From positions 1 to 22,553 of IMG/VR virus record IMGVR_UViG_3300012189_000039: DNA of 22,553 nt; one strand, given 5' to 3'. This DNA comes from a virus. The translations under genes were made by a program, and so were the position numbers. How positions within the stretch are numbered: position 1 is the first letter of the stretch; every line of letters begins with the position of its first letter. Below, piece after piece: positions 3,174-15,018 of the stretch. A model generated the notes under the pieces. That model was not told the DNA's origin. It saw only the letters and a program-made list of their open reading frames with translations, and searched no databases.

Positions 3174-4154
3174 TTACGGCACAGTCACTGCCGACCAAGC
3201 AGCCGCAACGCAAACGTTCAACGTAGTTGTCGTCGTACCGACAGTAAGAAAAGCTCCAGTAAACGCAGTACAAGCCGTTGTTGGAGCAGCCGGACCCCAA
3301 TAAACGACAAGAGGATAAGGAATTGTCGTCATATTGAAGGTAACAGACGTAGTCGTGTCGCCAGCCGTAAACGCTGTTATGTTCGGAGCGACGTAAGCAG
3401 CCTTCACTACTGAAGGCAAGGCGTAAGACCCTGTTGCGGTACAAGTCAACGATTGTCCTACGTTTGCCAAAGTTGATGGAAGAGTCCCCGCTTGAAGCTG
3501 TACAGTACACGCACTAGGAGCAGTTCCTGTCACAACCCAACCTAGAATCTGAGTTGGATAGTTAGAATTCTCGAACAGCGTCATATTCGCCGCATTCGAA
3601 TTTGGGTATGTTAGAAGTGTTCCCGGAGTAGCCGGTCCGCCAGCGCCACCGACGAAACCGGCCGATGACGTGAATGTAGCTGAACTATTCAACGAGCAAC
3701 TTGCAGTCGAGCTTGCACTCAGCGTGCAGATTGTCGCGTTGATAGTTTGGAGTGTCTCAGCCGCAGCCGCGCCGCCGGAGGCGCCAATGTAGATTCGGTA
3801 GCCGATAATCGAGCCGAAACCTCCAGCCGTGACGGGAGGAAATACCGTCACGGTCGAGGTCGAGCCGGTTGTCGTGATTACCGAGGAGGCCGCCGTGTCT
3901 ACAGAGCAAGGAGTCTCCGTATTTGCGAGTGAGAAAAACGTCACGCAAATACGATACGTCCCTGCTGCGACAGCACCTCCGGTAAGCGAGGTCGACGCTC
4001 CTGTAGCAGTCGAAGTCGACGAGCCTTGTCCAACCAACACCGTTGGAGGAGCAGTGGCGACCGTATCAACGAAGCTTTGGAAGAGGGTCTGTTGAGCAAA
4101 CGAAGGTAGAGCGCAAAGTGCTAGGATTGCGAGTAATGTAGGTAGTTTTTTCAT
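3174..4154 (-). CDS. Exported Ser/Thr/Ala-rich protein with Sec signal peptide
   Basis: 326 residues starting at an ATG with AAGGAG upstream, directly after the capsid gene stop. Residues 1-20 (MKKLPTLLAILALCALPSFA) form a textbook Sec signal peptide with a likely cut before QQ. The mature part is a low-charge, Ser/Thr/Ala/Gly-rich beta-type chain with segments such as AGTYRICVTFFS and GSIIGYRIYIG, which recall FN3-like or bacterial surface repeats. Several separated Cys residues suit an oxidising compartment. An export signal immediately behind the major capsid gene is unusual, since virion proteins assemble in the cytoplasm. It may instead act in the host envelope. No specific family assigned. 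Confidence 0.8.
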   Translation of the reverse strand: MKKLPTLLAILALCALPSFAQQTLFQSFVDTVATAPPTVLVGQGSSTSTATGASTSLTGGAVAAGTYRICVTFFSLANTETPCSVDTAASSVITTTGSTSTVTVFPPVTAGGFGSIIGYRIYIGASGGAAAAETLQTINATICTLSASSTASCSLNSSATFTSSAGFVGGAGGPATPGTLLTYPNSNAANMTLFENSNYPTQILGWVVTGTAPSACTVQLQAGTLPSTLANVGQSLTCTATGSYALPSVVKAAYVAPNITAFTAGDTTTSVTFNMTTIPYPLVVYWGPAAPTTACTAFTGAFLTVGTTTTTLNVCVAAAWSAVTVP

Positions 4155-4166
4155 GTTTGTATCTCC

Positions 4167-5120
4167 TTACGGCCCGTTGCTGCCGAAGGTGCCCTCCCAA
4201 ACTGTAGCTCCTACCGAGATACGCATGAACGATACTTGCTTGATTGAGCGAGTGTCGAAGTCATCAGCAAAGTCCTCGTCAAGCTCGTGTCTAACAAAAT
4301 ACTTCAATCGATGCGCCATCTTGTCAGCAATGACGAACCACGCGCTCTGCGAGGTGAGATAGTGACAGACGAAGTACTGCAAGTCTTCGGCCAACACAGC
4401 GTTGATTTCATTGTCCGCCGTATACGGCTTGTGCGGAGAGCCGAGAATTTCACGTGCAATCCACTTTAGCTCCGGCGGAATAACGACAGTACGCGGCTTG
4501 ATTGTAATCGGCAAGCCTTGACTGTCCGGAAGACGTTCGAAGAAATTGACCATCAACTGAATAGCCGTGAAGCTAAGATCAACATCGACGAGTGGCCTGT
4601 TCGGATATGTACCAGCCGCGGCAATAATGTTCGAGATACCAGGAGCGACCGAAGTTGCAGCCGGCCCGCCGAGTAGCGGATGGCTCGTATTGAACAAAGA
4701 CAAACCGTCCGTTGTCGTCACTGTCGTAAAGCCGAGGTTGAAGACGTTAAAGCTTTGCTGCTCTTTGATGAAGTGAGCAGAGCGAGCCAAGGCTTTCGGA
4801 ACTTGGTTGATTACGTTGTACTGGTCGTCCTCGTAGAGTTCGAACGAACAGCGAACGCCGAGACCGTAGGTTAGGTGAAGATACCGCTTCGAGCCGCCTT
4901 GAATAGCGTCGGAGTATGAAATCGCCTCACCTTCAGGCTTTTCTACAAGGGGAGGAAGTCCTGCGAACTCGACTTCGTCTTCGTAGGCCATCTTCGACGT
5001 CTCGACGTGAAATATGTGACTATACTCCTCGTCGCGTTGTAGTAAATCGACCCAGTGTAAAAATTCGTCGTGCAAACCGGGAGCCATAAGTTGCGCGAAT
5101 TGACCTCGAACCATAGTCAT
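4167..5120 (-). CDS. Major capsid protein, Mu gpT-like
   Basis: 317 residues from the ATG at 5120, one base after the preceding stop; a second ATG two codons on (5114) is equally possible. A start at 5183 would lie inside the preceding gene. The N-terminal MVRGQFAQLMAPGLHDEF, the central receding-loop-like region and the C-terminus (SVGATVWEGTFGSNGP) match the pattern of Mu-like major head subunits, and the length fits a HK97-fold capsid protein. Position supports the call: portal, scaffold candidate, two small head proteins, then this gene. There is no obvious SD, so it is probably coupled to the upstream decoration-protein candidate. A signal-peptide protein follows at once. Confidence 0.82.
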   Translation of the reverse strand: MTMVRGQFAQLMAPGLHDEFLHWVDLLQRDEEYSHIFHVETSKMAYEDEVEFAGLPPLVEKPEGEAISYSDAIQGGSKRYLHLTYGLGVRCSFELYEDDQYNVINQVPKALARSAHFIKEQQSFNVFNLGFTTVTTTDGLSLFNTSHPLLGGPAATSVAPGISNIIAAAGTYPNRPLVDVDLSFTAIQLMVNFFERLPDSQGLPITIKPRTVVIPPELKWIAREILGSPHKPYTADNEINAVLAEDLQYFVCHYLTSQSAWFVIADKMAHRLKYFVRHELDEDFADDFDTRSIKQVSFMRISVGATVWEGTFGSNGP

Positions 5121-5121
5121 G

Positions 5122-5703
5122 TCAGGCCACCAACTGTGCTGAGGCAGGCAGCACAACGAAGTATACGCCACGAGGAAGTGCACTTTGGTCGTTTGGATCG
5201 AGCCTGACTATTTCAACAACAGCCGTGGCTCCGGTTTTTGTTTTGTCAACATACCAATGACCATCAGCGTCGAGAGTCATTCCGTATTGCTTCGTAAGGT
5301 CAGTAGCAACAACGTTCTGAGCAGGACCGACTTGGCCAAGGAAGACAGTGTCAACAACAGACACTTCAAATCCCTGACGGCCATCACGAAACAACGGTCT
5401 TGATATACTGACAGCCGCAGGCTGAAACGGAACGGCTTGTCCAGTCGACGGCTGCGGACTTGGGTTAACCGCGGCTGTAGGATTTACTCCCAAAGCAGCG
5501 AGGTTGTTTCCGAACTCCTTCGAAAAGCCAGCAATTCCAAATGCGACCGTAACTCCATCCCACGCCTTCAATCCCCCGTCACCAGCGGCTACTTGAACGG
5601 GAGTCCCAGGCAAGAACGTCTGTCCGGCTTCTTCTATGATTCGTCTTATACGCGGTTGATTTCCGCTTACAGTCTGAATCGAGTGGATTTCAGCTGATGC
5701 CAT
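5122..5703 (-). CDS. Putative head decoration / capsid-stabilising protein
   Basis: 193 residues from the ATG at 5703, chosen because AAAGGAG lies 6 nt upstream; the longer reading from 5745 has no such signal. The sequence is beta-rich with patterns such as FLPGTPVQVAAGDGGLKAWDG, seen in small capsid-surface or head-fibre proteins encoded just before the capsid gene. It has no Cys and no membrane segment. The stop is 1 nt before the capsid start, implying co-translation in large amounts. An 8-bp-arm dyad lies 25-41 nt upstream of the start. Role is from position and composition. Confidence 0.65.
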   Translation of the reverse strand: MASAEIHSIQTVSGNQPRIRRIIEEAGQTFLPGTPVQVAAGDGGLKAWDGVTVAFGIAGFSKEFGNNLAALGVNPTAAVNPSPQPSTGQAVPFQPAAVSISRPLFRDGRQGFEVSVVDTVFLGQVGPAQNVVATDLTKQYGMTLDADGHWYVDKTKTGATAVVEIVRLDPNDQSALPRGVYFVVLPASAQLVA

Positions 5704-5747: not shown

Positions 5748-5773
5748 GCGACAGGGGCGTGCCGCAAACTCTT

Positions 5774-6370
5774 CTACGTATTGTCCCTCGTCAAAGCGTC
5801 AGTTTCAGCTAGAGTCGGAACATACGAAGAAACTTTTTTGGGAAGCGATGCCAAAGCATCGACTGGCTGACGGCGGGAGTCAGCGGCTTGGTGTTCGGTC
5901 ATTCCGCCTTCGATAGTCACGCCGGGCTTCTTGACTCGCAGACGAGCGTTTTGTTCGTTCCACTTTAGCGCACCGATATAGTCCTTACGCGGGATTTTGA
6001 GTAGAATTAAATCACCGTACATAATACGTCCGTCCTTGCATATCGACGGTGGACAAGTCAGACCTTCGTTTGAAAGTACGTCCTCGGGCCTCGCCGGGAC
6101 AAAACCCATCGCGATGAGCTGGTCGTAGCGTAGACCAGACTCCTTCTCACCGACAGCTCGATTGCCCCAGAAGAGGGACAAGTTCGGATTCTTCGGCTTC
6201 AGATTGATAAAGTTCGGCGCGCGAAGCGGCTTCGCTTCGATTTGGTCATACGGCAACGCTACTTCGATCGAGGCTGTTATGGGAGGAGTCGGCGGCAGCC
6301 CCCTTCCCGGCTGTTGGGAAGGGGGCAGATTCTTGGACGTCAATGTCGGTGGTGTATTAGGCGTTGACAT
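5774..6370 (-). CDS. Head-region protein, 198 aa, unknown function
   Basis: The ATG at 6370 is chosen because AGAAAGAAGG precedes it; it overlaps the scaffold-candidate stop by 14 nt in another frame. The first 45 residues are Pro/Ser/Thr-rich and probably disordered (LPPSQQPGRGLPPTPPIT). After that comes a more ordered region with GDLILLKIPRKDYIGALKW and a charged helical part. No catalytic motif or membrane segment is seen. Its place between scaffold and decoration genes suggests a minor head protein, assembly chaperone or protease cofactor, but no family is recognised. Confidence 0.65.
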   Translation of the reverse strand: MSTPNTPPTLTSKNLPPSQQPGRGLPPTPPITASIEVALPYDQIEAKPLRAPNFINLKPKNPNLSLFWGNRAVGEKESGLRYDQLIAMGFVPARPEDVLSNEGLTCPPSICKDGRIMYGDLILLKIPRKDYIGALKWNEQNARLRVKKPGVTIEGGMTEHQAADSRRQPVDALASLPKKVSSYVPTLAETDALTRDNT

Positions 6371-7109
6371 ATTGCATAGCCTTCTTTCTCTTAAGATAAT
6401 TTTCATGAGTCACGCCCATCTTATCTGCGACGTGTTTTTCGGCATCAGTGAGTTGATCGGTTGCGGGCTTCTGCTTTCCATCGTCAGTCGTCGAGACACT
6501 CGACTGAACAGGCTCCATGAAGTTGTATTTCTTCTTTCGAATCTCCGGATCACGAAGTTCGTCTGCGTGGACACCTTTCAGGTACATATAGATACCAAGC
6601 CACGCCTGTGGTGTCGTGAGTTGGATAGTTTGGTACTTCTTTGCTTCAGCATCCATCTCAGCTCCCCAATGCTGAAACAACCGCCCGTCCATCGTTTTGC
6701 TGTTGGAGGCGAGGTCAGCATTATTGAGTTGTTGCTGCGCGAGCATTCTTGCTGTCATAGCAGCGGTTTGAATCGCGATGTTAGCGACAGGTGCAACACG
6801 CTGCCCAAAAGCTTTGTCTGGCTCCTCAACGAAGTTAGCAAGCTCGTTGTTGTTATTGTCACTGCCGTTCGGATTCGCATTACGATTCGCTTCCGCGGCT
6901 GCGAGACGTGTCTTAACGGCTTCGAACTCCGTTTGAATCGCCGTGACTCTCTCTGTGTCTTTGACACGCTCAGCTTCAAGCTCAGTCACACGAGTTGAGG
7001 CTTTATCAGCCGCGTCCATCATTGCAAGAATGTCGTCTTCAGACTTGTCCTTGAAACGCTCCGGTACTTTATCCTTCTTCTTTGCGTTTATTGAGTCCAA
7101 CCATCCCAC
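6357..7109 (-). CDS. Putative scaffolding protein
   Basis: 250 residues starting with GTG at 7109, with GAGGAGG ending 6 nt upstream. Residues about 20-75 form a strongly charged coiled coil (ASTRVTELEAERVKDTERV), followed by an Asn-rich linker (NANPNGSDNNNNE), Ala/Gln-rich helices and a basic C-terminus (ENYLKRKKAMQYVNA). An acidic helical body with a basic helical tail that binds the capsid is the usual layout of phage scaffolds, and the gene lies between portal and capsid as expected. No protease motif is visible, so maturation cleavage is not evident. Confidence 0.7.
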   Translation of the reverse strand: MGWLDSINAKKKDKVPERFKDKSEDDILAMMDAADKASTRVTELEAERVKDTERVTAIQTEFEAVKTRLAAAEANRNANPNGSDNNNNELANFVEEPDKAFGQRVAPVANIAIQTAAMTARMLAQQQLNNADLASNSKTMDGRLFQHWGAEMDAEAKKYQTIQLTTPQAWLGIYMYLKGVHADELRDPEIRKKKYNFMEPVQSSVSTTDDGKQKPATDQLTDAEKHVADKMGVTHENYLKRKKAMQYVNA

Positions 7110-7377
7110 TTTGAACCTCCTCTATCTTCTTTCGTTTTCCAGTTGTTATATCGTGTAGGTACTCACGAATCATAGCTGGAAGCTCGATTATTTGACCCAA
7201 AATCCTCAAAGCTCCCTGAGCACGGAAAAGCTCCTTCTCGTCATCCGACGTTCGAAGAATTTGATAATCCCTGTCCGTCCACTCTCGAAGCATCTCATTG
7301 AAGTCTCTGGCCTCCGCCGCCTCCAGCCACGTTAGAGTCTGGTTGGGGCTGCGTGCCAGAAGCTGATTGATTCCCAC
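7069..7377 (-). CDS. 102-residue protein overlapping the portal C-terminus
   Basis: A GTG at 7377 with GGAGG 5 nt upstream opens a 102-codon frame. The first 83 nt lie inside the portal gene in another frame, and the last 41 nt lie inside the scaffold-candidate gene. The protein is highly charged and helical (ARDFNEMLREWTDRDYQIL, ELFRAQGALRILGQII), with no Cys and no membrane segment. Without it there would be a gap of about 185 nt between portal and scaffold, and its SD is good, so I take it as real. Function unknown; a small head-assembly or connector-associated protein is possible. Confidence 0.75.
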   Translation of the reverse strand: MGINQLLARSPNQTLTWLEAAEARDFNEMLREWTDRDYQILRTSDDEKELFRAQGALRILGQIIELPAMIREYLHDITTGKRKKIEEVQSGMVGLNKRKEEG

Positions 7378-9175
7378 CTTGACCTCCGGGTTGTTGTTTC
7401 ATTGGATCGGGGACGAGTCTATCTACCTCTTCGTGACCAAAGTTCTTGAGAATCTTCTTCATGAGTAGGTTCGACGCGACGATGACTTCCTTGAAGTAGC
7501 TCTGAACCTGCGGTGGCGTCATTACATTCTGCATCGAACCGAGCAAGCTCGCGACCATTTGGTAATGGCGAGCCATTATTTGGCTAAGCATTACATCATT
7601 TTGCTTCTCAACCTCTTTGTTTACAGACGCGGTCGAAGAGTAACAAGGAAGGCCAATTTCCTTACGAGTTATCGCCGTGATTGCATCTTTGATACTAGCC
7701 GCCTTCGCTCCAAAGAGTTTCAGTCGTGCTTCGTGGAACTTGCTTCCTTCGCCAAAAACGCCATACTGATAAGTAACAAGCCTCATCAATCGAGTATGGG
7801 AGTCGCGCATATCAGAGATGTTCAAGTCCTTGCGTGAGTTGCCTTCCTGCATCACCGAGAGAGTACCCATCGCAGAGTAGATACCACGCTTCCCCGGAGC
7901 TCCCGCTCCCATACCTTGTTGAGGCGGACTTACTCCCGAGCGCCGCTCCGCGAGTTCGAGCAGCATACGAAGCTCATCGAGGTTAATTTGACTAACATCG
8001 CCGTGAGCCAAGGCTTCGATTTCACCTTCGTCAGCAGGCAACATCGCTGATGGGTAAATACGATAGCCTTGATGCAGTTTAGAGTCAGGATGTACACGCC
8101 ATACGCGAGTGTTTGCGACAGTTTGGTTATCGCGGTAGCCATTATAGGTTTCAGAGGCGCCCTCCTGGAACATCCAAAGCATCTCGGCGAAGCCGTAGCC
8201 CGGATACATATCGTCGCGATGAGCCATGCGCGCGCCGACGAACCATTCTTTTTGAAAGTTGTCGTAGACAACACGTAGAAGCTTGTCGCTCTTTTCGTGA
8301 TACGTCGCTATCAAACGAGGAGCGAAGCTTTCGTCGTTGTAACGCCACGTGACGTAACATTCCCAAATGTCCCACTCTTCGTGACCGTATGAACCTATAG
8401 TCTTGGCTCCGAGTGTCTCTTCTTTCTCTGTCTGCTCGTTGGTTGCGAAGGTCCGATCCGGAACCTTCAAAACTTCCTCGACGGTAGTACGACTGTAAAC
8501 GTCGGAGAACTTTCGTTCTTCAATCTCGTAACGAGTCATAATACGCTTGTGGATTTTGATATCCATATCCTCAAGACGCTTCGCCGCAATCGGGAAGTAA
8601 AAGCCACTGAACGGAAGTTTCTCTGGCCGCGGGCCTTCGTAGATAGTCTTATTGAGGAAATCGCGTGGCTTCCCAGTTCCGTCACCGCCTGGGATAAGAA
8701 AGTCGCGTGTTTTGTTTTCCCATGGCGTTTTGAATGTAATCATCCCATACTTGATACACTCACGGTAGCCTTCGTTGTAAACCCGGTAAAGGTCCAGCTC
8801 TTCAGGCTCCAAACAGACATACTGCATATACTCTTCGTAGGCTTCCTTGAGCTTGTCTGACTCGGTCCCGAAGTCGCCTAAGACTTTAGCATAGACAATA
8901 GGATCGGTTTTGAAGATACCGGCCATTATCTGAGCGTGGAGAGTGTCAGTATGAATCGCGATGAGCGGAATGACAAGATTCGAAGCATTCTGGAACGGGA
9001 ACTGTCGTTGCTCCTCACGAGGCCGTGCTTCATACGCCGCTCTCCACTTTACGACCTTCTCTTCGTAGAGCTCCTTCATCGAATCCTTAAGCTCACGAAC
9101 GCGCTTCTTCAAATACTTACGAAGAGCCTCGTCCTTCTCCGTGGAGAGTTTCGCGACAATGAGTTGTTCGGCCAT
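7295..9175 (-). CDS. Portal protein
   Basis: 626 residues, a usual portal length. The N-terminal helix-rich part is followed by FPFQNASNLVIPLIAIHTDTL, the conserved early segment of P22-like portals in which a Trp/Phe-Asn-Asn-style loop precedes helices of the wing. A central ALAHGDVSQINLDELRMLLE stretch and a long helical C-terminal region follow, ending in a Gly/Gln/Ser-rich flexible tail. The twelve-subunit portal ring is the DNA gate that docks the terminase and later the neck. The flexible tail is encoded by the stretch that also encodes the start of the next gene in a different frame. The gene lies after the terminase genes and before scaffold and capsid, in canonical order. Confidence 0.88.
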   Translation of the reverse strand: MAEQLIVAKLSTEKDEALRKYLKKRVRELKDSMKELYEEKVVKWRAAYEARPREEQRQFPFQNASNLVIPLIAIHTDTLHAQIMAGIFKTDPIVYAKVLGDFGTESDKLKEAYEEYMQYVCLEPEELDLYRVYNEGYRECIKYGMITFKTPWENKTRDFLIPGGDGTGKPRDFLNKTIYEGPRPEKLPFSGFYFPIAAKRLEDMDIKIHKRIMTRYEIEERKFSDVYSRTTVEEVLKVPDRTFATNEQTEKEETLGAKTIGSYGHEEWDIWECYVTWRYNDESFAPRLIATYHEKSDKLLRVVYDNFQKEWFVGARMAHRDDMYPGYGFAEMLWMFQEGASETYNGYRDNQTVANTRVWRVHPDSKLHQGYRIYPSAMLPADEGEIEALAHGDVSQINLDELRMLLELAERRSGVSPPQQGMGAGAPGKRGIYSAMGTLSVMQEGNSRKDLNISDMRDSHTRLMRLVTYQYGVFGEGSKFHEARLKLFGAKAASIKDAITAITRKEIGLPCYSSTASVNKEVEKQNDVMLSQIMARHYQMVASLLGSMQNVMTPPQVQSYFKEVIVASNLLMKKILKNFGHEEVDRLVPDPMKQQPGGQGGNQSASGTQPQPDSNVAGGGGGQRLQ

Positions 9176-13884: not shown

Positions 13885-14187
13885 ATGACACAGAATGGGA
13901 CAAGTGTGCAAGAGATGGTCAACGACGGCGTAGACTCTAACGCGCATCTCATCGTTGAGATATCGCAAGCGTCTTACGACGCGCTGACCGAAGTTGTAAA
14001 CCGTGCGACCGACCGTGGTCTTGAGTCTTCGTTTGAACACTGGCTCAATGACGCGGTCAAGACGGGTGCGACAGCGCGACTTCGAACTTGGAACGACCGC
14101 GACGTTGTTACTCTATATAAACAAGCCGCATCGGGAAACGACAAGGCGAAAGCCAAACTCGCGAAGATGCTAGGCATCACGAAGTAG
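13885..14187 (+). CDS. First right-arm gene; possible ribbon-helix-helix-like protein
   Basis: 100 residues from the ATG at 13885, which has AGGAG 8 nt upstream; the ATG two codons earlier is too close to that SD. The sequence has one short strand-like piece (HLIVEIS), a helix (QASYDALTEVVNRATDRG) and a second helix (SFEHWLNDAVKTG), the order of a ribbon-helix-helix DNA-binding domain. A basic and helical C-terminus follows (AKAKLAKMLGITK). As the gene next to the control region it is a candidate regulator of the arms. The fold assignment is tentative. Confidence 0.6.
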   Translation: MTQNGTSVQEMVNDGVDSNAHLIVEISQASYDALTEVVNRATDRGLESSFEHWLNDAVKTGATARLRTWNDRDVVTLYKQAASGNDKAKAKLAKMLGITK

Positions 14188-14545
14188 TTTGTCACACCGA
14201 AGGTGCGAAGCACAGCGAGTCTTGTGATGGTGCGTTGAGTCGGTGTGGAGCACTTGTGTACATTGTAATAGTGTACACACTACCCCCGACCCCTGTCGTC
14301 ATCGAGTGTGTATATATTATTATTTATGTACACACACATCAACGTCAGGGGAAGAGACTGGTGTGTACAGATATCCTTTGTACACAAGTGCTACGCAAGT
14401 GTCAGGAGCAACCTTCGGTGTGTTGTCTGTCAAGACGTTCGCAGAACGTTGTAGACAGCGAAGGCGAAGCTTAAGTGGTAGGTACGCCCACAAGCCGACA
14501 CAAGATGGACTCAACGCACTATCGTTGTATTCAGTGAGGCACTCA
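14188..14545. other. Gene-free, highly structured region (inverted-repeat cluster)
   Basis: 358 nt between the first right-arm gene and a 31-codon gene. It contains a large nested dyad (14249-14392), a 12-bp perfect inverted pair flanking it (14193-14204 with 14411-14422), a hairpin at 14427-14458 with arms CTGTC-ACGTTC and GAACGT-GACAG, a hairpin at 14469-14495 (GCTT-GTGG with CCAC-AAGC), and a GTGC-gaa-GCAC mini-hairpin near 14203-14213. Frames crossing it have Cys/His-rich, non-protein-like translations and no SD. It may be a replication origin, a structured RNA or a binding array. Confidence 0.7.
14249..14392. repeat. 144-bp nested dyad on a single axis with five TGTACA sites
   Basis: Outer arms AGCACTTGTGTACA (14249-14262) and 14379-14392 are perfect complements. 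Inside, on the same centre (between 14320 and 14321), GTACACAC (14273-14280) pairs with 14361-14368, CCCCTG (14290-14295) with 14346-14351, and GTGTGTATATA (14306-14316) with 14325-14335 with one wobble, around the AT-only loop TTATTATT. Internal gaps are the same length on both sides (10 and 10, 9 and 9, 10 and 9-10). TGTACA occurs at 14257, 14272, 14327, 14364 and 14379, four of them as mirror pairs. Confidence 0.9.
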
Positions 14546-14641
14546 ATGTCAATCGCTACTGCGATTTGTTTTGTCGTTCTTGTATATATCGGCGTCATTG
14601 CGTCGACGGTCAGACTCGCGATGGAGTCGCGTCGTGGGTGA
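14546..14641 (+). CDS. 31-residue single-helix membrane protein
   Basis: ATG at 14546 with GAGG about 7 nt upstream. The product MSIATAICFVVLVYIGVIAS is one hydrophobic helix, followed by a short basic tail (VRLAMESRRG), positive inside. The stop overlaps the GTG start of the next gene by 8 nt, as expected for a coupled pair. The longer frame through the inverted repeats to 14243 is not credible. Very small membrane proteins in early phage regions often alter host envelope or membrane-protein activity, but no target can be named. Confidence 0.55.
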   Translation: MSIATAICFVVLVYIGVIASTVRLAMESRRG

Positions 14642-14939
14642 CACTCCTATCAGTCGTATCTACAAAGACCTTGAACTATATACCGACGATGCTATCGCCG
14701 CATCGAACAATCCTATTCCAGCATCGCAGAAGTATCAACCATCGACGGCGTGGATTGAGTTTCTCTTCACTGTCCACCCACCCCTCAACAAAGCGAACGA
14801 GTTTATCTGCTATCACAACAAGTTCAACTGGCGGCCATGTCGACAGTGTCGACGTTCGCCGGAGTATGCTCGAATGTGGAAAGAGAAATACTGGCCGAAG
14901 GTCGTGGCACAACTGACCACGAATCGAGACACACAATAA
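14634..14939 (+). CDS. 101-residue protein with Cys pair, unknown function
   Basis: Start taken as the GTG at 14634, with GGAG 8 nt upstream inside the preceding small gene; the frame continues upstream to 14571 but without an SD. The chain has an N-terminal helix with LELYTDDAIAASNN, an aromatic centre (STAWIEFLFTVHPP) and NWRPCRQCRRSPEYARMW, a CxxC motif set in a basic stretch. One CxxC alone may bind metal by dimerising or be a redox pair. A promoter begins about 50 bp after its stop. Not recognised. Confidence 0.6.
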   Translation: MGDTPISRIYKDLELYTDDAIAASNNPIPASQKYQPSTAWIEFLFTVHPPLNKANEFICYHNKFNWRPCRQCRRSPEYARMWKEKYWPKVVAQLTTNRDTQ

Positions 14940-14957
14940 CATAACTGTGTAATTATT

Positions 14958-15018
14958 ACAAGTCGTTGATAACAAAGCACATTTAGTGCTTGCATTTACG
15001 CGTACAAACTGGTAGCAT
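14958..15018 (+). promoter_or_regulatory. Promoter P1 with shared 23-bp upstream block
   Basis: TTGCAT (14990-14995), 17 bp, TAGCAT (15013-15018). The block at 14958-14980, ending in TTGATAACAAAGCAC, is 20/23 identical to the one at 16784 and 19/23 to the one at 21333. AAGCAC-atttа-type symmetry (AAGCAC ... GTGCTT) spans 14975-14991 here only. The GIY-YIG gene's ATG lies 5 nt beyond the -10 box, so the transcript is expected to begin at or next to the start codon. Confidence 0.75.

Follow-up and report, generated by a model that had tools for sequence, protein, structure and literature searches.

Introduction

To our knowledge, replication origins have hardly ever been located in tailed phages that are uncultured. 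Phage T7 carries RNase III sites in its early mRNA, in hairpins between early genes, and in phi29-type packaging RNA the structure is kept while the sequence diverges among relatives. The OriL palindrome of HSV is similar in size to the phage element described here. At geminivirus origins, an AT-rich loop lies between complementary sequences that vary by species, with iterons beside them, and the stem serves to force the loop strands apart (PMC10653810). HSV OriS has an AT-rich spacer with inverted boxes on either side, and a hairpin forms from its single strand once unwound (PMC12543377).

We analyzed a 22,553-base virus contig from IMG/VR (the window, which here means this whole stretch of DNA), in which a large nested dyad had been noticed between genes. 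The dyad belongs to a family-wide element whose position and structure are conserved and whose function is putative. Judged from sequence, it could be a DNA element resembling a replication origin, carried by a family of uncultured tailed phages, a reading that we tentatively favor over a hairpin acting at the mRNA level; the strand tests described below do not separate the two. Both had been offered in the original prediction, as an origin whose unwinding core has sites on its flanks and as a long hairpin RNA, and among the readings proposed there they are still the best two.

Like the stem-loop origins of geminiviruses and CRESS-DNA viruses, the phage element has a conserved AT-rich loop, a variable complementary stem, and short repeated boxes, or iterons, flanking it (PMC10653810). 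Unlike them, it has an apex of 15 to 26 nt, and the apex sequences of the hairpins lack TAATATTAC, the nick motif (NANTATTAC type) of rolling-circle origins. Its stem is several times longer, and its carrier is a 48-kb tailed dsDNA phage; Phage_GPA-type Rep (PF05840, the sole profile behind our HUH result) was found in none of 9 records, with a positive control. With HSV OriS and OriL it shares an AT-only spacer of about 18 to 20 bp between inverted binding boxes (PMC12543377). The HSV arms, however, are fixed UL9 binding sites, whereas the phage arms are hypervariable and we know of no UL9-like protein in the family, and the two are not homologous.

A large dyad around an AT-only core

The four nested arm pairs that had been described on one center around an AT-only core were confirmed (Table 1). 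The center at 14320.5 gathers 48 of 72 possible ungapped Watson-Crick pairs at a half-width of 72, against 34 for the runner-up center anywhere in the window. As RNA, 14249-14392 folds at -70.3 kcal/mol (z = -9.3), and shuffles were never as good. The proposed folding of both strands gave a strong result on each, with z = -8.5 (+) and -8.1 (-) for 14190-14545. The view that coding does not explain this symmetry is supported, and the symmetry is in fact larger than first stated, since an outer helix encloses the dyad. This helix was observed in the window and in the related contig L003 only; between the two, one T-A pair became C-G, another T-A became T-G, and a G-T became A-T, so that + strand pairing was preserved in every case. 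No Rfam family or tRNA was found, the Rfam matches all being below the gathering threshold and mostly to microRNA precursors.

Table 1. Features of the element and its surroundings, in window coordinates
Feature	Position	Strand	Remarks
Small conserved ORF (family A6)	13885..14187	+	Upstream of hairpin; adjoins element in relatives
Outer helix, 5' side	14226..14241	+	Its first 12 nt correspond to GATGGCGCGATG, which precedes the hairpin in relatives
Conserved long inverted repeat/hairpin	14243..14398	+	52 pairs in + strand fold; equivalent place in 12 other non-redundant contigs
Outer arm, 14 bp, perfect, 5' side	14249..14262	+	Pairs with 14379-14392
GTGTA box, base of 5' arm	14256..14260	+	55 nt before AT core; position -53 to -65 in 8/13
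Second arm, 5' side	14272..14282	+	Pairs with 14359-14369
Third arm CCCCTG, 5' side	14290..14295	+	Pairs with 14346-14351
Apex arm, 5' side	14306..14316	+	Pairs with 14325-14335
GTGTA box, 5' edge of AT core	14308..14312	+	
AT-only apex TATATATTATTATTTAT	14311..14327	.	The window's longest AT-only run; likely the core that unwinds, or else the loop of an RNA
Apex arm, 3' side	14325..14335	+	Pairs with 14306-14316
TACAC box, 3' edge of AT core	14329..14333	-	
Third arm CAGGGG, 3' side	14346..14351	+	Pairs with 14290-14295
Second arm, 3' side	14359..14369	+	Pairs with 14272-14282
Outer arm, 14 bp, 3' side	14379..14392	+	Pairs with 14249-14262
TACAC box, base of 3' arm	14381..14385	-	
TACGC box just outside 3' arm	14392..14396	-	Alternative partner of basal GTGTA
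Outer helix, 3' side	14508..14523	+	Helix kept in L003 via 1 double and 2 wobble changes

TGTACA had been reported five times in 128 bp. The count is correct (five copies in 14257-14384), and the window holds 13 copies against 4.2 expected, a number reached by 0 of 100 shuffles. The copies are not independent, however: TGTACA is self-complementary and lies in mirrored arms, so that the five amount to about three. The fifth copy, at 14327, lies inside the apex arm without a TGTACA mirror, and the copies sit in TG/TA-rich sequence.

The hairpin occupies the same place across a phage family

Relatives were scanned with a sliding fold, and hairpins were then extracted from the intergenic region. 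The scan gave syntenic + strand peaks about 5 kb ahead of the FtsK gene, and the symmetry was indeed present in relatives, with a long hairpin at the equivalent intergenic place in 12 other non-redundant contigs: L003 (group G1, with L004), L006 (G2), L007 (G3), L008 (G4), L014, L020, L021, L022, L025, L026, L028, and L100. Together with the window these give 13 hairpins of 133 to 170 nt, with 38 to 67 pairs, a longest uninterrupted helix of 8 to 24 bp, and + strand fold z values from -4.1 to -12.0. They lie 29 to 135 nt past a stop codon and usually 3 to 55 nt ahead of the next start.

The structural genes (terminase large subunit, portal/adaptor type proteins) run leftward, and the rightward genes start at about 13.88 kb. 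The element lies next to the small ORF, where the structural and early operons diverge, and follows the first gene of its operon. The usual order in relatives is small ORF, hairpin, small Cys/His ORF, zinc-ribbon ORF (GDECQCGRR), and later an FtsK/SpoIIIE-like gene; the window and L003 have a different ORF in place of the small Cys/His ORF.

In 14 contigs (the 13 above and L011), an AT-only tract of 15 to 26 nt at the apex is the longest AT-only run of the contig, and this holds also in contigs of 44 to 48 kb with about 51% GC. The gene order of L011 is the same, and its tract lies in a weaker hairpin of that intergenic region. In L015, the small ORF is followed by a different hairpin, and the AT core and boxes (CGTATAATATATTATACAC) are in the next intergenic region; core and boxes away from a long stem indicate that they form a unit separable from it. 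In L005, only about 90 nt separate the small ORF from the one that follows, with no such hairpin there, and the contig ends soon after.

GATGGCGCGATG precedes the hairpin in seven relatives, and its combination with an ATATATWTT core at 57 to 87 nt occurred in five of 2.9 million viral contigs, all of the same family. A scan with the downstream ORF gave no further family members, and nucleotide searches found no match to the locus in cultured phages or to the hairpin in plasmids. A rule based on composition, which asks for the longest AT-only run to lie at the tip of a long inverted repeat that follows an operon's first gene, found the element in 14 contigs despite little sharing of arm sequence, and could find it in contigs missed by alignment.

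Two related contigs, L104 (end at 3507) and L106 (end at 3566), terminate within the hairpin's 3' arm or just where this arm finishes. The palindrome seems to have broken these assemblies, which may hide the element in other phage contigs. Such ends are also what an explanation by chance or assembly artefact could point to, but it is already refuted, since 13 independent contigs share the anatomy while their arm sequences are unrelated.

Arm sequences turn over while pairing is kept

Aligning the two arms of each of the 13 hairpins without a G-U bonus gave 784 Watson-Crick pairs and 220 mismatches, with scores above all shuffles save for L022, which ties with its best shuffle. From one hairpin to another, the arms are not alignable across the family. 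L008 and L100 are 97% identical in the upstream ORF, whereas alignment of the two hairpins gives 60% and that of shuffles 56%; for L007 and L008, the ORF is 90% identical and the hairpins align at 44%, against 45%. Nearly complete arm turnover with pairing kept, next to a gene that is 97% identical, makes a strong natural test of structure-only selection. Because the arms vary freely yet stay complementary, we conclude that a single strand folds, be it DNA or RNA. The retained complementarity rules out plain double-stranded protein sites, and it is folding that is under selection, not only the binding of a protein to the duplex. Relatives had been expected to display either compensatory change, as for an RNA, or conserved TGTACA with drifting arms, as for protein sites, and neither outcome was found in pure form. 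We also considered whether the arms are copies of the phage's own genome elsewhere; 12-mers were shared only at control level.

Such freedom of the arms would suit an RNA, in which only pairing matters, and the nearest alternative, almost as plausible as an origin, is that the early polycistronic mRNA contains a long hairpin between genes 1 and 2. It would be cut, or else protected, by RNases specific for double strands, or would act as a regulatory RNA of about 300 nt in the window phage and L003. The element lies on the transcribed strand between a stop and a start codon, its + strand folds have z values of about -4 to -12, and its uninterrupted helices of up to 24 bp are putative targets of RNase III, for which a transcribed stem of some 20 bp or longer is expected. 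Furthermore, the outer-helix changes between the window and L003 all preserve + strand pairs, most hairpins have an AT tract that is rich in T on the + strand, and mismatches of the G-T type outnumber A-C ones (64 versus 39, P = 0.018). As in the T7 RNase III hairpins, a long imperfect stem, of a kind recognized by its double-strandedness, stands between co-directional early genes; the element of the phage family is much longer, however, its apex is AT-only, its boxes keep fixed positions, and its cleavage is putative. A strand test by folding energies was suggestive at first, but the preference lost significance after correction for base composition (P = 0.11 for the energy excess, 0.30 for z). 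An mRNA hairpin would predict neither the longest AT-only run of the genome at its apex nor inverted boxes common to the hairpin and a promoter region, and the restriction of the outer helix to the window and L003 and the lack of an Rfam family also count against it. If the element does act as RNA, it would be an unlisted structured element of early phage mRNA.

Short boxes surround the AT core

TGTACA as a conserved site was rejected; it was absent from the hairpins of the relatives first examined and is specific to the window phage. What is conserved in relatives is a shorter box, GYGTA(A)/(T)TACRC, found in inverted pairs at the arm base and the apex edge, and the TGTACA sites of the window are GTGTA(C)/(G)TACAC versions of it. 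GTGTA occurs in the 5' arm of 10 of 13 hairpins, a number never reached in 300 shuffles. The basal box stands at a fixed distance from the AT core (-53 to -65) in 8 of 13, with 0.6 expected, and in six hairpins it is mirrored by a TACAC/TACGC that lies between about +50 and +66.

GYGTAA was observed 26 times up to 130 bp from the core, against 3.0 expected (P about 3e-16), for boxes defined after inspection of the same hairpins, with paired copies that are non-independent and genomes that share ancestry. The excess is still large when the count is halved for arm pairing, and look-alike controls were flat (observed versus expected, AYGTAG 4 and 3.5, GYATGA 2 and 4.3, GRGTAA 1 and 3.4). L026, L028, and L011 have weak boxes or none, the last two having T-rich cores with few boxes. 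The DnaA box TTWTNCACA had 4 perfect matches against 0.12 expected, in just 3 of 15 contigs.

An inverted pair, GTGTA-N4-TACA, followed by TTGATAACAAA, lies at 14946-14959 of the window. L006 and L008 carry it about 100 nt before the zinc-ribbon ORF, ahead of a strong TTGACA-type promoter of a later gene. By its sequence, this pair is probably an operator with the same box as the hairpin, and its place near a later promoter fits a DNA-binding protein. It is improbable, however, that the hairpin as a whole is a transcriptional operator whose GYGTA(A) boxes are bound by a phage regulator, with the small upstream ORF as the candidate. Boxes ahead of a later promoter and a conserved adjoining ORF agree with that idea, but it leaves about 50 unconserved yet complementary pairs unexplained, and the ORF has no detectable DNA-binding family, a weak predicted model (pLDDT 66.7), and no PDB match. 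A ribbon-helix-helix protein, suggested for this ORF by sequence reading, was unsupported by the model and the fold search.

A candidate replication origin

We favor a replication origin because viral stem-loop origins are likewise built from an AT-rich core, inverted boxes, and a variable stem. The GYGTA(A) boxes would be bound by a protein of the phage or of its host, and the AT core would melt; the arms would fold into hairpins, as a cruciform or on the exposed single strands, and could keep the core open so that the phage's own replication proteins can load. The position next to the small ORF, where the operons diverge, the placement of the longest AT-only run in 14 contigs, the GYGTAA excess, and the fixed basal box are all consistent with an origin. 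So are the separable core and boxes of L015, the box pair ahead of a later promoter in L006 and L008, the DnaA-box matches, if in 3 contigs only, the loop, stem, and iteron pattern shared with geminivirus origins, and the AT spacer between inverted boxes shared with OriS. The family also encodes replication genes: the 48.5-kb contig G003 (L118) has a DNA_pol_A and UDG fusion, AAA_24, and PDDEXK.

Against an origin, no initiator was identified. GC skew, proposed as a check, has its minimum 0.9 to 6 kb from the element, and the direction of transcription would by itself give rise to this minimum. The element would also be transcribed within its co-directional operon, its hypervariable arms are at least as easily explained by an RNA hairpin, and the boxes, defined post hoc, are absent or weak in three contigs. 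With more reserve, we suggest that tailed dsDNA phages might use a fold-dependent stem-loop origin, with an AT-only core and short boxes in a long hairpin whose arms are selected solely for complementarity and swapped wholesale between close relatives.

Gene content of the family and neighboring elements

The family comprises about 15 contigs without a close cultured relative (best terminase tblastn identity, 29%), and two protein queries against 84,980 GTDB genomes gave no match to host prophages. Tyrosine integrase (PF00589) was absent from 14 records, with a positive control in all 14 genomes, and a dimeric recombinase of that kind, proposed originally to act on the dyad, is therefore unsupported. 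Reverse transcriptase (PF00078) was likewise absent from 14 records with a positive control, and no retron msr-msd was identified. As these two and DnaB are missing from the 14 records, we infer that the family is virulent. G003 has a direct terminal overlap of 127 nt, so its genome is circular or terminally redundant, which leaves the proposed end-resolving enzyme without support. In G003, 6305-9016 encodes the fusion of UDG and a family A DNA polymerase (903 aa), and 3872-5170 encodes a ParB-N-DNA methylase fusion (432 aa).

The terminase genes start about 1 to 2 kb from the element on the opposite strand, a proximity that might suggest a hairpin for packaging or concatemer processing. We consider this very unlikely: nothing ties the element to terminase, and it is hypervariable, whereas terminase sites are normally sequence-specific. 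Phi29-type packaging RNA resembles it in keeping structure despite sequence divergence among relatives, but has another architecture, without a single long stem, and the packaging link is absent for the phage element.

A possible 31-aa hydrophobic ORF at 14548-14643 of the window, not seen in L003, has GAGG upstream and appears coupled to the gene that follows (GTG near 14634). Another intergenic hairpin (AGTACTCTCACTCCATAGCAACGTTCTAGAGC...GATGGGGTGAGAGTA), with no Rfam match, precedes the zinc-ribbon ORF in L006 (about 5750-5850), L007 (about 5290-5390), and L008 (about 5365-5470); in contrast to the main hairpin, its sequence is near-identical in these three relatives.
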